Assembly (NCBI GenBank): GCA_016191165.1
Contig: JACPPF010000174.1
Location: 1-39,256, forward strand
Direction of reading: 5' to 3'
DNA from: Planctomycetota bacterium
Lineage (GTDB): Bacteria; Planctomycetota; Planctomycetia; Gemmatales; Gemmataceae
Length of the DNA: 39,256 bases
Of this stretch, positions 24,123 through 29,463 are shown in pieces (the stretch's first letter is position 1; every line of letters starts with the position of its first letter). A program made the position numbers and the translations under genes. Under the pieces are notes generated by a model. The model saw nothing but the letters and a program-made list of their open reading frames with translations. It had not been told where the DNA came from and ran no database searches.

Positions 24123-24596
24123 TTACTGCTTCGCTTCCGCTGCCTCCAGCACGGCGCGGATGATCTTGTCATACCCGGTACACCGACACAGGTTGCCCGC
24201 GAGGAAATGGCGTGCATCGTGTTCGGTTGGGTGTGGGTTTTTATCCAAAAGTGCCTTGGCAGCGAGAATGAAGCCGGGGGTGCAGATTCCGCATTGCAGG
24301 GCGGCGCCTTCGAGGAAGCACTTTTGCAACGGATGCAGCCCGTCTTTGCTGGCGATGCCTTCGATGGTGGTGACCTTGAGGCCATCGACCTCGGCGGCCA
24401 TGACGAGGCAGCTGTTGACGAGTCGGCCGTCGAGGATCACGTTGCACGCACCGCAGTTGCCGTTGTTGCAGCCTTCCTTGGCGCCGGTCAACTTCAACTC
24501 GTCGCGCAGGGCTTCGAGCAGGCTATTGCGTGGCTCGCACAGGAACTCGGCAGTTTGGCCGTTGACAGTGCAGGTGATGTGGAGTTTTTTGGTCAC
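24123..24596 (-). CDS. 2Fe-2S subunit of a molybdenum hydroxylase (CoxS/XdhC-like small subunit)
   Basis: This 157-residue protein has two 2Fe-2S domains. The plant-type cluster ligands are Cys43, Cys48, Cys51 (GCNNGNCGAC) and Cys63. The helical second domain has CGICTPGF (Cys102, Cys105) and LCRCTGY (Cys137, Cys139). It passes electrons between the molybdenum site and FAD in xanthine dehydrogenase/CO dehydrogenase-type hydroxylases. The FAD subunit gene precedes it by 76 bases on the same strand. The catalytic molybdenum subunit is not in the window. Confidence 0.93.
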   Translation of the reverse strand: MTKKLHITCTVNGQTAEFLCEPRNSLLEALRDELKLTGAKEGCNNGNCGACNVILDGRLVNSCLVMAAEVDGLKVTTIEGIASKDGLHPLQKCFLEGAALQCGICTPGFILAAKALLDKNPHPTEHDARHFLAGNLCRCTGYDKIIRAVLEAAEAKQ

Positions 24597-24618
24597 AACA
24601 AATGTCCTTCGCCGTTAA

Positions 24619-24658
24619 TCGTTTAGCATTCCGATGGCGCCATGCGGGCGCTAAACGA
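24619..24658. repeat. Palindromic repeat between the two hydroxylase genes
   Basis: TCGTTTAGC (24619-24627) is the exact complement of GCTAAACGA (24650-24658), with a GGCGCC inside the loop. It shares the CGTTTAGC/GCTAAACG ends with the repeats at 5500-5516 and 9009-9088. Confidence 0.6.
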
Positions 24659-24672
24659 AGAGTCGAAAAAGA

Positions 24673-25539
24673 TCAAGATTTTGCGCGCTCGATTGCGACT
24701 GCTAGGGCTCGTTTGACGAGAACGCCTACCAGATGTCGGCGGTAGTCGGCGTTGCCGCGCATGTCGCTGATGGGTTTGGCGGCGGCCTGGGCGAGGGTCG
24801 CGGCCTTGGCGAGTGCTGGCCCATCCAGCGCGGTGCCGACCAGGGCGGCGCCCGCCTCCGCCACCAACAGAGGCGTCGGCGCGACGGCGGCGAGCGCGAT
24901 GCGAGCCGCAGTGCATTTTGCCCTGGCATCAAGTTGCACCGAGACGCCCGCGCCGACCACGGCGATGTCCATCTCATTTCGGGGGATGAAGCGCAGGTAG
25001 GCGGCGCCCGCTTGCTTTTTCGGAGGCGGGAAGCGAAAGCGGACCAGGAACTCGCCGCGCCCCAGCACCGTCTTGCCCGGCGCGATACAGAACTGCTCGA
25101 CCGGCACGCTGCGGGTCCCCTTCGGACCGGCAATGTCGCACACGCCTTCCAGCGCGATCAACACGGGAATGCCGTCGGCCGCGGGCGAGGCGTTGCACAG
25201 GTTCCCGCCCAGGCTCGCGCGGCTCTGAATCTGGATGCCGCCGATCAGCGAAACAGCATCGATCAGTCCGGAGTACGCTTTGGCAATCGCCTGGTTCTCG
25301 TAAATCAAGCAGCACGGCACGGCGGCGCCGATGGTGAGGCCCTTGGCATCGCAAGTCAGTTCGTTGACCTCGTTGATGTGCTTGATATCGACCAGCGCGT
25401 CGATGTCGCGCCGGCCTTCACGGACCTGCACGATGATGTCGGTCCCACCCGCGAGGATGCGGGCGCGATCGCCCTTGTCGTTGAGGTAGGCGGTCGCATC
25501 GGCGAGCGTTTTCGGGGCGGCGTAGGTGATGTCTTTCAT
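24673..25539 (-). CDS. FAD-binding subunit of a molybdenum hydroxylase (CoxM-like)
   Basis: The product has 288 residues and starts MKDITYAAPKTLADATAYL. The FAD-binding signature is ARILAGGTDIIVQVREG, then GLTIGAAVPCCLIYE and IGGIQIQSRASLGGNLCNAS (the GGNxxxA pyrophosphate loop). The C-terminal domain has GEFLVRFRFPPP. In this family it takes electrons from the 2Fe-2S subunit to oxidise xanthine, aldehydes, nicotinate or CO, depending on the large subunit, which is absent here. The frame is open far upstream, but ATG 25539 matches the family N-terminus. It lies between the aldehyde dehydrogenase and 2Fe-2S genes on one strand. Confidence 0.92.
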   Translation of the reverse strand: MKDITYAAPKTLADATAYLNDKGDRARILAGGTDIIVQVREGRRDIDALVDIKHINEVNELTCDAKGLTIGAAVPCCLIYENQAIAKAYSGLIDAVSLIGGIQIQSRASLGGNLCNASPAADGIPVLIALEGVCDIAGPKGTRSVPVEQFCIAPGKTVLGRGEFLVRFRFPPPKKQAGAAYLRFIPRNEMDIAVVGAGVSVQLDARAKCTAARIALAAVAPTPLLVAEAGAALVGTALDGPALAKAATLAQAAAKPISDMRGNADYRRHLVGVLVKRALAVAIERAKS

Positions 25540-25549
25540 GCAAATCCTC

Positions 25550-25620
25550 AAGCCCACAGATGAGCGCAGCGATTCTGCGGGGTGTGGTCCCCGGGAATCG
25601 CTGCGCTCATCCCGGGGCTT
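25550..25620. repeat. 16-bp perfect inverted repeat between aldehyde dehydrogenase and CoxM genes
   Basis: ATGAGCGCAGCGATTC (25560-25575) and GAATCGCTGCGCTCAT (25595-25610) are exact complements. Outer AAGCCC and GGGGCTT segments (25550-25555 and 25614-25620) extend the fold. It could attenuate transcription between the two genes. The TGAGC...GCAGCG motif recurs in the hairpin at 31265. Confidence 0.75.
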
Positions 25621-25625
25621 GGAAA

Positions 25626-27086
25626 TCAATCCCTCAGCTTGAAACTCACATACTTCGTCTCCAGATACGCATCCAGCCCCTCGTGGCCCAGTTCGCGGCC
25701 GTAGCCGGATTCTTTCATGCCGCCGAAGGGGCACTGCGGCGTGGCCGGGACGGGGTCATTGATGCCGATGATGCCGGCCTCCAGCCCCTCGGCCATCTTC
25801 CAGGCGATGCTCAAATCGTTCGTGAAGCAATACGCTGCCAGGCCGTACTTCGTGTTATTGGCGGCCGCGATGACATCGTCAAGATTCTTGAACCCGAGCA
25901 ATGGCATCACCGGAGCGAAGGGCTCCTCGGTCATGATGCGGGCGTTCATCGGCAGGTTGTCGAGGATGGTCGGTTCGAAGAAGTAGCCCTTGGGGAACTT
26001 GTCACTGCGTTTGCCGCCGGTGAGCAGCTTGGCGCCGCATTTCTTGGCGTCCTCGATAAGGCTGATGGTGCCGTCCATGGCCCGTTTCTCGAACATCGGG
26101 CCGATCTCGGTGCCGGCGTCCAGGCCGTTGCCGAGTTTCAACTGCTTGGCAAATTCGACGGTTGCCTCGGTGAATTTCTTCTGCACATCCTGATGCACAT
26201 AGAATCGGCTCGGCGCGATGCAGACCTGGCCGTTGTTGCGGAACTTGCCCATGACGGCTAGCTTTGCGCCGACTTCGGGATCGGCATCGGGGAAGACGAT
26301 GAACGGTGCATGGCCGCCCAACTCCAGGCTGATGCGCTTGACCTGATCGGCGGCGCCGCGCATAAGTTGTTTACCGACCTCGGTGGAGCCGGTGAAGCTG
26401 ATCTTGCGAACGATCGGGTTTTCGAGAAACTCGTCGGCGACATCCTGCGCTGGGCCCATGACGAGGCTGGCAACACCCGCCGGCAGGCCCGCCTCGATCA
26501 TGCATTCAAAGACTTGTACCAGCGAGAGCGGTGTTTGCGAGGCCGGTTTGCAGACGATGGTGCACCCGGCGGCCAGGGCTGGCGCGATTTTGCGCGATTG
26601 CAGCGTGATCGGGAAGTTCCACGGGCTGATGGCGCCGACGACGCCGACCGGGTGCTTCAGCGTGACGTGTCGCTTGCCCGGCGCCGAGTTCGGGATGAGT
26701 TGCCCATAGGCCCGCTTGCCTTCCTCGGCGAACCATTCAAACGTGTCGGCCGAGTGCAATATTTCAGCCTTCGCCTCGGCAAGCGGCTTGCCCTGTTCCA
26801 TGGTCAGGGTCTTGGCGATGGCGTCGGCGCGTTCGCGCATCAGGTCGGCGGTTTTTTTCAGGACCTTGGCGCGATCGTAGGGTGTCAGCTTCATCCAGGC
26901 GGGCATCGCCTTGCCGGCGGCCGCGATGGCGCGCTTGACATCCGCCCGGCTGCCGAGCGCCATTTCGACGATGACCTCTTCGGTCGCGGGGTTGATGACG
27001 CCGACGGTTTTGCCGTCCTGGGCGGTACACCATTGGCCGTCGATGTACATTTTCTTGGTGGTCGCCGATGCGGTTGCGGTCGCCAT
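25626..27086 (-). CDS. NAD(P)-dependent aldehyde dehydrogenase (succinate-semialdehyde type)
   Basis: The protein has 486 residues, the normal size. It begins MATATASATTKKMYIDGQWC. Catalytic features are PWNFP (Asn157), the Glu255 segment LELGGHAPFIV and the nucleophile Cys289 in NNGQVCIAPSR. SFTGSTEVGKQL is the cofactor region and PFGGMKESGYGRELG the C-terminal family motif. It oxidises aldehydes to acids. The overall pattern, with TEEPFAPVMP, is nearest to GabD-like succinate-semialdehyde dehydrogenases, but substrate cannot be fixed. A GGAG ribosome site precedes ATG 27086. It lies upstream of the two molybdenum-hydroxylase subunits on the same strand, with a hairpin repeat between. Confidence 0.93.
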   Translation of the reverse strand: MATATASATTKKMYIDGQWCTAQDGKTVGVINPATEEVIVEMALGSRADVKRAIAAAGKAMPAWMKLTPYDRAKVLKKTADLMRERADAIAKTLTMEQGKPLAEAKAEILHSADTFEWFAEEGKRAYGQLIPNSAPGKRHVTLKHPVGVVGAISPWNFPITLQSRKIAPALAAGCTIVCKPASQTPLSLVQVFECMIEAGLPAGVASLVMGPAQDVADEFLENPIVRKISFTGSTEVGKQLMRGAADQVKRISLELGGHAPFIVFPDADPEVGAKLAVMGKFRNNGQVCIAPSRFYVHQDVQKKFTEATVEFAKQLKLGNGLDAGTEIGPMFEKRAMDGTISLIEDAKKCGAKLLTGGKRSDKFPKGYFFEPTILDNLPMNARIMTEEPFAPVMPLLGFKNLDDVIAAANNTKYGLAAYCFTNDLSIAWKMAEGLEAGIIGINDPVPATPQCPFGGMKESGYGRELGHEGLDAYLETKYVSFKLRD

Positions 27087-27256: not shown

Positions 27257-27682
27257 TCAACGCGGCGGGACGACCGTTCGCTGCAAGTTGGTGTTGATGC
27301 GGGCGCCGGTGCGCAGGATGGTTTGTTCGCCGACGATTGTATCCGAATCGGTGACGGTGCCGCGGAATTGAAGCAACTTTGATTTGGGATTGATCCAGTG
27401 CTCGAAGAAAAGCGTGTTGCCGTCCAGTCGCCAGGTGCCGCGGTTTCTGAAGACGGTTTTCGTGGTGGTTTTGTAGCTGACGGTGCCGTCGGCCTCAAGA
27501 ATGAAAGTGCGGTTGGTCGTTATGTATTTGCCAAGCCAGGCGGTGCCATTCAGATTGCGAAAGGCCATTGCGGGACGCGCGGTCGGCGCCTCGGGTTCAT
27601 AAACGGGGCGAGCCGGCGCCGAATAAGTGGCGCCAATGAAAAACATTGACAAGATCAACGAAACGATGAAAAGCCGCAGCAT
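27257..27682 (-). CDS. Small secreted protein, tandem family member A
   Basis: This 141-residue protein begins MLRLFIVSLILSMFFIGATY, a signal peptide, and then SAPARPVYEPEAP. The mature part is beta-rich: LNGTAWLGKYITTN, ADGTVSYKTT, NRGTWRLDGNTLFFEHW and FRGTVTDSDTIVGEQ. The two genes upstream (27847-28248 and 28284-28682) encode the same layout, so this is the last of three tandem paralogs. The pattern of a short barrel-like domain with GTW..GN..FE recalls lipocalin-like or META-type domains, but no named family is certain. A GGGAG ribosome site precedes ATG 27682. It is 164 bases after member B, the largest gap in the set. Confidence 0.82.
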   Translation of the reverse strand: MLRLFIVSLILSMFFIGATYSAPARPVYEPEAPTARPAMAFRNLNGTAWLGKYITTNRTFILEADGTVSYKTTTKTVFRNRGTWRLDGNTLFFEHWINPKSKLLQFRGTVTDSDTIVGEQTILRTGARINTNLQRTVVPPR

Positions 27683-27846
27683 GTGGTTTTCTCCCTGAAT
27701 TTGAGAATCAGCTGGCAGCGAATATGCCGGAACGTCCTGGGCAATTTGGCAACGAAAACAGGTAGCATGGTCGTTGTAGCGGCTGGGGCCGGGATTGTCC
27801 GCTCCGGCGGCTTGCGCGCCTGCACAGGCGGGAAAGTCAAAGCTTG

Positions 27847-28248
27847 CTATTTCCTCGGCAACACCAAGACGTCGGCGGTGGCGCGGCGCAAGAACGGCTG
27901 GCACTTCTGGCCGCTTTTGTTCCAGCCGCTTCCCTGGATGATGTCTCCCTGCACGGTGACGCGGTACTCGCTCCACTTGTTGATTTCAAAGTGAAGGTGA
28001 TTGCCGACGAAATGCCAGGTGCCCGGGCTGCCGCCTCCCTTACCAAAGCCATAGGTTAGCGTCCCGCCGGCGTGGAACGTGACGCGCTCGCCTTCGCTAT
28101 AGAGCCTGCCGATCCACGTGGTGCCCGCCAAACCGACGAACGGAGACGGTTGCACCGGATCAGGAGGTTCATAAGTCGGCCTGGCCGGGGCGGCGCTGGC
28201 TGCGGCGACAACGCAAAATGCGATCAACGAAAAGATTGCGACCCGCAT
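27847..28248 (-). CDS. Small secreted protein, tandem family member B
   Basis: The product has 133 residues. It has a signal peptide (MRVAIFSLIAFCVVAAASA) followed by APARPTYEPPDP. The beta-rich body matches members A and C: LAGTTWIGRLYSEGE, GGTLTYGFGKGG, SPGTWHFVGNHLHFEI and QGDIIQGSGWNKSG. It ends VLVLPRK, like the PRPK and VPPR ends of its neighbours. A GGAG ribosome site lies before the ATG. The function is unknown; the signal peptide puts it outside the cytoplasm. Confidence 0.82.
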   Translation of the reverse strand: MRVAIFSLIAFCVVAAASAAPARPTYEPPDPVQPSPFVGLAGTTWIGRLYSEGERVTFHAGGTLTYGFGKGGGSPGTWHFVGNHLHFEINKWSEYRVTVQGDIIQGSGWNKSGQKCQPFLRRATADVLVLPRK

Positions 28249-28283
28249 GACAATCTCCGCACTCCCCAGGCCGCGCGCCCGGA

Positions 28284-28682
28284 TTACTTCGGACGCGGCG
28301 TAAGTTTCAAAGTCGTCACATAACGCGATCCGCTGTTGTTGAAGGTCAACCCTTGAATGATCTGGCCGTCGGTGGTCCCCTGGAATTCCAGCGTCTTGCG
28401 GTTGAACTCAAAGTACACTTTATTGCCTTCCAGCCTCCATGTGCCGGTGGAACCGGCCTTTTTGGCGTCGAGCTGGCCGTAGCCCCAGTTGATGGTGCCT
28501 TGCTCCTCGAAGATGATCCAGAAGTTGTCGGCGTAGCATTTGCCGAACCAATACGTGCCGGCGAGGGAAAGCGGCGTGCCCGGTGTTGCCCGCGGGGGGG
28601 GATCATATCGAGGTCGGGCGGGCGCCGCGTTGACGAGGCCAGTCCCCATCAACATCAGGATCCATGCAACCGATCGTTTCAT
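28284..28682 (-). CDS. Small secreted protein, tandem family member C
   Basis: The product has 132 residues. MKRSVAWILMLMGTGLVNA is a signal peptide, followed by APARPRYDPPPR. The body repeats the family pattern: LAGTYWFGKCYADN, EQGTINWGYGQ, GSTGTWRLEGNKVYFEFN, EFQGTTDGQIIQGL, and the end LTPRPK. Its ATG overlaps the stop of the receiver-like gene as ATGA, and a GCGGAG ribosome site lies inside that gene. It is therefore probably translated together with the receiver-like protein. An upstream in-frame start at 28757 lies within that gene and would mask the signal peptide. Confidence 0.83.
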   Translation of the reverse strand: MKRSVAWILMLMGTGLVNAAPARPRYDPPPRATPGTPLSLAGTYWFGKCYADNFWIIFEEQGTINWGYGQLDAKKAGSTGTWRLEGNKVYFEFNRKTLEFQGTTDGQIIQGLTFNNSGSRYVTTLKLTPRPK

Positions 28683-29056
28683 GAGCCCGTCTCCGCGGGG
28701 CGATACCACAAAGGGAGGGCCGTCGCCAACTCCTCCACGAACTTGCTGCGCGGCCACACCAGGTCGCAGCCGGCCTCGCGCGCTTTTTTCAGCGTCGCGA
28801 CATCGACATGCGAGCCGTAGCCGACGATGATCGGCTTCGGCGTCAGCGCGGCGAGTTCGCCCACCAGCGCGGCGACATCGAGGCCCGGCAAATGCAAGTC
28901 AATGATAACACAGCGCGGCGGCGCTTGTCTTGCCAATTGCAGGAGGTCCTCCCCTTTTTTTTTGGCGTGGAGCGTCAGGCCTTGCGCCTTTGCCTCGCCG
29001 CCGACGCGGCTAGTGAAGATCAAGTCGTCGCACAGATGCAGGCCATATTCCGGCAT
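28679..29056 (-). CDS. Receiver-like (CheY-fold) protein, divergent
   Basis: This 125-residue protein resembles a response-regulator receiver domain without an output domain. An acidic pair (Asp10-Asp11) lies in the first loop. CVIIDLHLPGLD carries the likely phospho-acceptor Asp53. KPIIVGYGSHVD follows, where the usual Thr/Ser is replaced, and REAGCDLVWPRSKF stands where GADxxLxKP is expected, so the conserved Lys is displaced. Phosphorylation is possible but not assured. No histidine kinase is nearby. It starts 60 bases after the PII gene, and its stop overlaps the start of the first small secreted protein (ATGA). Confidence 0.75.
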   Translation of the reverse strand: MPEYGLHLCDDLIFTSRVGGEAKAQGLTLHAKKKGEDLLQLARQAPPRCVIIDLHLPGLDVAALVGELAALTPKPIIVGYGSHVDVATLKKAREAGCDLVWPRSKFVEELATALPLWYRPAETGS

Positions 29057-29115
29057 GGGAATCCCGCCAGTCTTTTGCCGCCCGGTAAATCCTGTGGGCG
29101 TGCGAACGAGGAAAA

Positions 29116-29463
29116 TCAGATTGCCTCGGGCCCACGTTCGCCGGTGCGGATGCGGATGCAATCTTCCATGGGCAGAATGAATATCTTGCCATCGCCAATG
29201 CGCCCCTCCGGACCGGTGCGACCCGCCTCCATGATGGCGTTGACGGTTGGCTCCACGAAATCCTCGTTGACCGCGATCTGCAATTGTACCTTGTTGAGCA
29301 GCGTCACCGTCAGGTCGTGGCCGCGAAACATCTCGGTCTGCCCCTTCTGCCGACCGAAACCGCGGCAATCGATCATCGTCAGGCGAAAAACCTCGACCTG
29401 GTTGAGCGCTTCCTTGACCGCTTCCACTCGGGACGGCTGAATGATGGCAATGATGAGCTTCAT
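29116..29463 (-). CDS. glnB: PII nitrogen regulatory protein (GlnB/GlnK-like), without Tyr51
   Basis: The protein has 115 residues. PII proteins are trimers that sense 2-oxoglutarate and ATP/ADP. The sequence follows the family closely: MKLIIAIIQPSRVEAVKEAL, CRGFGRQKGQTEMFRG, then IGDGKIFILPMEDCIRIRTG. Two features are odd. Position 51 in the T-loop is Leu (HDLTV) where enteric PII has the uridylylated Tyr. The B-loop reads TGPEGRIGDGK, three residues longer than TGKIGDGK. Start ATG 29463 has an AGGAAG ribosome site; an in-frame start at 29505 would add 14 residues. No glutamine synthetase or amt gene is nearby. Confidence 0.93.
   Translation of the reverse strand: MKLIIAIIQPSRVEAVKEALNQVEVFRLTMIDCRGFGRQKGQTEMFRGHDLTVTLLNKVQLQIAVNEDFVEPTVNAIMEAGRTGPEGRIGDGKIFILPMEDCIRIRTGERGPEAI

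Follow-up and report, generated by a model that had tools for sequence, protein, structure and literature searches.

Gene order and residue conservation suggest an undescribed partnership between a PII protein and a pseudo-receiver in planctomycetes

Within the window, the 39,256-nucleotide stretch of Gemmataceae DNA that we analysed, five minus-strand genes form a train running from position 29463 to 27257. They encode a PII-family protein, a receiver-like protein and three small paralogs, here called A, B and C. A sixth same-strand gene, encoding an aldehyde dehydrogenase, lies 170 bases past C.

29116..29463, minus strand: PII-family protein, 115 aa (PF00543, 3.3e-27)
28679..29056, minus strand: single-domain pseudo-receiver, 125 aa (PF00072, alignment, AlphaFold2 model, structural matches)
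28284..28682, minus strand: predicted secreted barrel paralog A, 132 aa (barrel model, avidin-type fold match)
27847..28248, minus strand: predicted secreted barrel paralog B, 133 aa (homology to A and C)
27257..27682, minus strand: predicted secreted barrel paralog C, 141 aa (homology to A and B)
25626..27086, minus strand: aldehyde dehydrogenase, succinate-semialdehyde-dehydrogenase-like (PF00171, 2.8e-169)

The preliminary description of this DNA had placed five genes in a row on the minus strand with an ATGA overlap, and both the positions and the overlap match. The receiver stop and the A start share four bases (spacing of -4), and the remaining intergenic gaps measure 59 bases (PII-receiver), 35 bases (A-B) and 164 bases (B-C). 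We treat all five open reading frames as true genes rather than chance ones because relatives in other genomes keep the frames. The aldehyde dehydrogenase matches TIGR01780 at 2.6e-158, under the equivalog cut-off, and clustering of recurrent neighbours recovered the order of paralogs then aldehyde dehydrogenase in related loci of the window's genus. Such clustering served as a lead only, since antisense ORF shadows contaminate it in G+C-rich genomes; real partners were confirmed by protein family. The genes after the aldehyde dehydrogenase, also on the minus strand (24123-27086 with the dehydrogenase), encode the FAD-binding and [2Fe-2S] subunits of an enzyme of the molybdopterin-dehydrogenase type. 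Allowing up to two mismatches, a search for sigma-54 sites found 8 across the window, where 12 were expected, and the PII-receiver locus had none of them. Scans for sigma-70-like promoters and terminators gave no useful signal and no convincing promoter near the genes, where no Rfam element matched either.

The first protein of the train is a clear PII family member, passing the PF00543 profile with 95.3 bits (cut-off 25). Aligned to E. coli GlnB as a yardstick, it keeps all ATP- and 2-oxoglutarate-binding residues (G37, Q39, K40, K58, G87, K90, R101 and R103). Its T-loop departs from the proteobacterial pattern. The Tyr51 uridylylation site that marks the GlnB/GlnK subgroup is missing, with Leu at this position in the window PII and L, V, F, M or I in all 34 linked-type PIIs, so uridylylation at Tyr51 as known elsewhere cannot operate in them. 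All 34, the window's included, carry His at position 49; Tyr46 is retained in 32 of them and is Phe in the window PII. Of the 95 genomes in the window's family, 90 have this PII. The amt-linked PII of the same genome is a separate gene on contig C173, and the window PII is not amt-linked. We also observed a third PII-family gene in this genome (G000:C180:19863-20150, locus L064), which encodes 104 aa, ends early after the B-loop region and has no amt gene within the stretch read.

The second protein scores 27.2 bits (4.5e-6) against PF00072, below the cut-off of 30.2. Its AlphaFold2 model is a confidently predicted receiver fold (pLDDT 89.8), and the top structural matches of that model are receivers (VIA Z 17.6). 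We aligned it and its relatives to CheY and NtrC as yardsticks. All 50 aligned relatives retain the acidic pair and the phospho-Asp, the second pocket residue being Asp in 49 and Glu in 1. The Thr/Ser position is Gly in all 50, and the Lys position is Arg in 49. The window receiver follows this pattern: DD and D (Asp53) are kept, T is replaced by G81 and K by R103, so that T and K are missing from the full canonical set of D, DD, T and K. A pseudo-receiver is defined as a receiver domain without at least one of the five active-site residues (PMC12632262, a 2025 review). By this published definition the window receiver, as aligned and modelled, counts as a pseudo-receiver with two of five residues lost. 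The invariant acidic residues may leave room for metal binding or some phosphorylation. Within the window's family, 91 of 95 genomes have a relative of this receiver, a few of these being weak matches to other receivers; in the window's class, at least 299 of 397 genomes do. Two further relatives (L151 and L153) sit in metagenome-assembled genomes labelled Latescibacterota and Omnitrophota, and may reflect transfer or mis-binning.

The pairing of these two genes recurs widely. Among 75 family genomes in which both genes were located, best-match coordinates place PII directly upstream of the receiver, on the same strand and within 2 kb, in 28 genomes that cover 15 of 30 genera, the spacing running from 8 to 874 bases; in half of the family's genera both genes are present but apart. 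We inspected twenty pair-bearing loci in full. For comparison between families we refer to f1 to f5, of which f1 is Gemmataceae by its named copies and f3 and f4 are by inference Isosphaeraceae and Pirellulaceae-like, respectively. Outside the window's family, 28 of 37 sampled genomes (2 from f2, 33 from f3 and 2 from f5) carry the pair within 2 kb, a figure that describes a sample drawn from the best receiver matches listed and is no class-wide rate; one more genome has it within 6 kb. Genomes of f4 have the receiver without a PII of the linked type, next to different neighbours that include an aspartate kinase gene. The receiver family is therefore older and wider than its PII linkage. The preliminary description had grouped all five genes and raised the question of whether the PII-receiver-paralog order recurs across planctomycetes. 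Its PII-receiver portion does so, in the 28 of 75 and 28 of 37 genomes above, but the secreted paralogs join, and the full order is found, only in the window's genus. Together, these results suggest that PII and the pseudo-receiver form a conserved two-gene core in two planctomycete orders, hinting at an undescribed partnership.

Between the two core genes lies an exchangeable position. It is empty in the window's genus, is occupied by a Nudix hydrolase in eleven named loci of other Gemmataceae, with one further locus showing Nudix-receiver at a contig end, and holds a HAD hydrolase of the beta-phosphoglucomutase group in 15 of 18 f3 loci. Partial sets also occur: L212 has PII-Nudix but lacks the receiver, and L219 and L220 have HAD-receiver but lack PII. 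Retention of the pair while its surroundings change favours a functional link over passive synteny, and is no proof of contact. As a separate observation, three loci with PII apart from the receiver (L206, L207 and L212) have a gene resembling formylmethanofuran dehydrogenase subunit A, assigned by eye, close upstream of PII.

A second stable context of the receiver emerged from 85 receiver loci, comprising named loci and genome stretches in which some organisms appear twice, so that loci rather than species are counted. PII lies upstream in 40 and a secreted Trypsin_2 plus TPM gene in 23, and at no locus do the two coincide; 17 loci show neither gene, and 5 are incomplete. The trypsin-TPM gene ends 0-48 bases upstream of the receiver in these 23 Gemmata-type loci (for example L122:6721-8001), and L218 is one more such locus beyond the 85. 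In the receiver tree, built on 116 columns and with many forks open, all trypsin-linked receivers fall into one clade (SH-aLRT 97) together with some unlinked receivers, and PII-linked receivers spread over several other deep branches. On the most economical interpretation, the PII pair came first in Gemmataceae and neighbouring families and was displaced in the Gemmata branch. We found no close trypsin-TPM copy in the window's genome, where the best match reached 33%.

The three paralogs behind the receiver are mutually homologous (36-38% identity, tblastn E 1e-7 to 1e-22), with 31 columns invariant across A, B and C, and their signal-peptide-like N-terminal stretches predict secretion. The motifs described for them earlier, APARPxYxP and GTW(R/H)..GN..FE, are present; GTxWxGK does not extend to B, which has GTTWIGR. 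That they cannot be placed in any family proved too strong, as they are Lipocalin_4/TIGR03066-like and A models as a barrel of possibly avidin type. All three remain under every curated cut-off (A against Lipocalin_4, PF13648, scores 14.5 bits, cut-off 22.4), but a five-domain relative passes Lipocalin_4 with 40.2 bits against the same cut-off. Among tandem relatives, matches reach 6.5e-10 for PF13648 and 6e-8 for TIGR03066, the latter below cut-off. The model of A, based on 13 sequences, is an eight-strand barrel (pLDDT 82.4); VIA-align ranks avidins first (Z 10.9; 86 residues superposed at rmsd 2.6 with 12% identity), though Foldseek returned nothing better than E 0.01. We read A-C as probable small secreted barrels of a ligand-binding type, avidin- or lipocalin-like, added to the operon at the genus level.

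In the window's genus, each of the six genomes with an identified receiver has between one and four paralogs behind it; two genomes carry a single copy, which is of the C type, and one further genome has paralogs on a short contig. Among the matches listed, relatives occur in 15 of 95 family genomes, the window's genus included, and in 15 of 297 genomes of the class. Outside the genus they are rare and not near the PII-receiver pair, and we rejected the paralogs as a conserved module part there. The preliminary description had proposed a nitrogen-responsive envelope module and had named homologs scattered without a PII or receiver link as evidence against it. Such scattering is what we found beyond the window's genus, and the linkage of secreted proteins to PII and the receiver is confined to that genus, so the data do not support a general module of this kind. 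Among relatives elsewhere, one large protein each at L190:2895-4778 and L189:3672-5831, in sister family f2, contains five tandem A/B/C-type barrel domains. At L197:2712-3314 such a domain is fused behind the planctomycete domain TIGR02996, and L195:2873-3481 has one with an N-terminal region that resembles L197's by look. A plasmid search with A gave matches at chance level only.

Several known systems resemble parts of this arrangement. PII-PipX and PII-NAGK of cyanobacteria and GlnK-AmtB share the PII fold family and the conserved effector-binding residues, and PipX is a small non-enzymatic PII partner, as the pseudo-receiver here would be. In contrast to these systems, the putative partner here is a pseudo-receiver, the T-loop has His49 and no Tyr51, and amt is not adjacent. 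Bacterial pseudo-receivers, or atypical response regulators (PMC12632262), share with the window's the receiver fold and the loss of active-site residues, here two of five; the window's stands alone, keeps all three acidic residues and adjoins a PII gene. Lipocalin_4 (PF13648), the TIGR03066 Gemmata paralog domain and avidin-type barrels share with A-C a faint similarity in sequence and, as modelled for A, an eight-strand meander barrel, although A-C themselves stay below curated cut-offs. In the open-access papers searched, we found no description of a PII-pseudo-receiver pair or of such a PII partner.

The best explanation, to which we assign a probability of about 0.5, is that the two genes form a unit in which the pseudo-receiver is a PII-controlled protein-interaction adaptor outside any histidine-kinase pair. 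The orphan PII trimer would read ATP, ADP and 2-oxoglutarate and, in one effector state, would bind or release the adjacently encoded pseudo-receiver. This protein, having no effector domain and lacking the Thr and Lys of phosphorylation switching, would then act on a further target by protein contacts. Nudix and HAD enzymes and, in the window's genus, the barrel proteins would be lineage-specific passengers or outputs on a shared transcript. This reading builds on the observed gene order and its recurrence, the residue losses and the predicted folds; co-transcription, direct binding, the target and any dependence on nitrogen are inferred. Against it count the half of the family's genera in which the two genes lie apart, the coupling of the receiver to trypsin-TPM in Gemmata types, the occurrence of the receiver in f4 without a linked-type PII, the invariance of DD and D, and the fact that adjacency of genes is not binding. 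A bolder version, tentative and on balance doubtful, makes the pseudo-receiver a new dedicated class of PII target: PII binding dependent on 2-oxoglutarate and adenylates, not phosphorylation, would set its state, which would directly explain the switching of one group of bacterial pseudo-receivers, and in Gemmata types the same receiver would have been rewired to the secreted trypsin-TPM protein.

The adaptor explanation has to be set against three others. PII and the pseudo-receiver might simply be co-expressed housekeeping genes whose ancestral operon has persisted through inertia, the two products neither touching nor regulating each other. In its favour, many genera have lost or replaced the linkage yet retain both genes, and the receiver has other stable neighbours too; the pair nonetheless spans families despite swapped middle genes and differing flanks, and we consider mere inertia possible but rather unlikely. 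Control of the envelope, with the pseudo-receiver coupling cell state to secreted proteins (barrels here, trypsin-TPM in Gemmata types), was raised in narrower form by the preliminary description and would account for why the receiver's stop overlaps the start of A and why, in 23 loci, the receiver is coupled to the gene of a secreted trypsin-TPM protein. It seems improbable, given that f3, where PII linkage is strongest, has no intervening secreted gene and that barrel genes beside the pair are limited to one genus. Quite improbable is a conventional two-component output in which a kinase encoded elsewhere phosphorylates Asp53 and PII is incidental: the receiver fold and the kept acidic residues (DD and D) are consistent with it, but the switch Thr and Lys are replaced in essentially all relatives and the protein has no effector domain.

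The effectors of PII are known and easily controlled, and a pseudo-receiver that recurs beside it makes the pseudo-receiver question testable with two small proteins. If true, the PII-controlled adaptor would add a partner to planctomycete PII signalling, with nothing comparable in the open-access literature searched.
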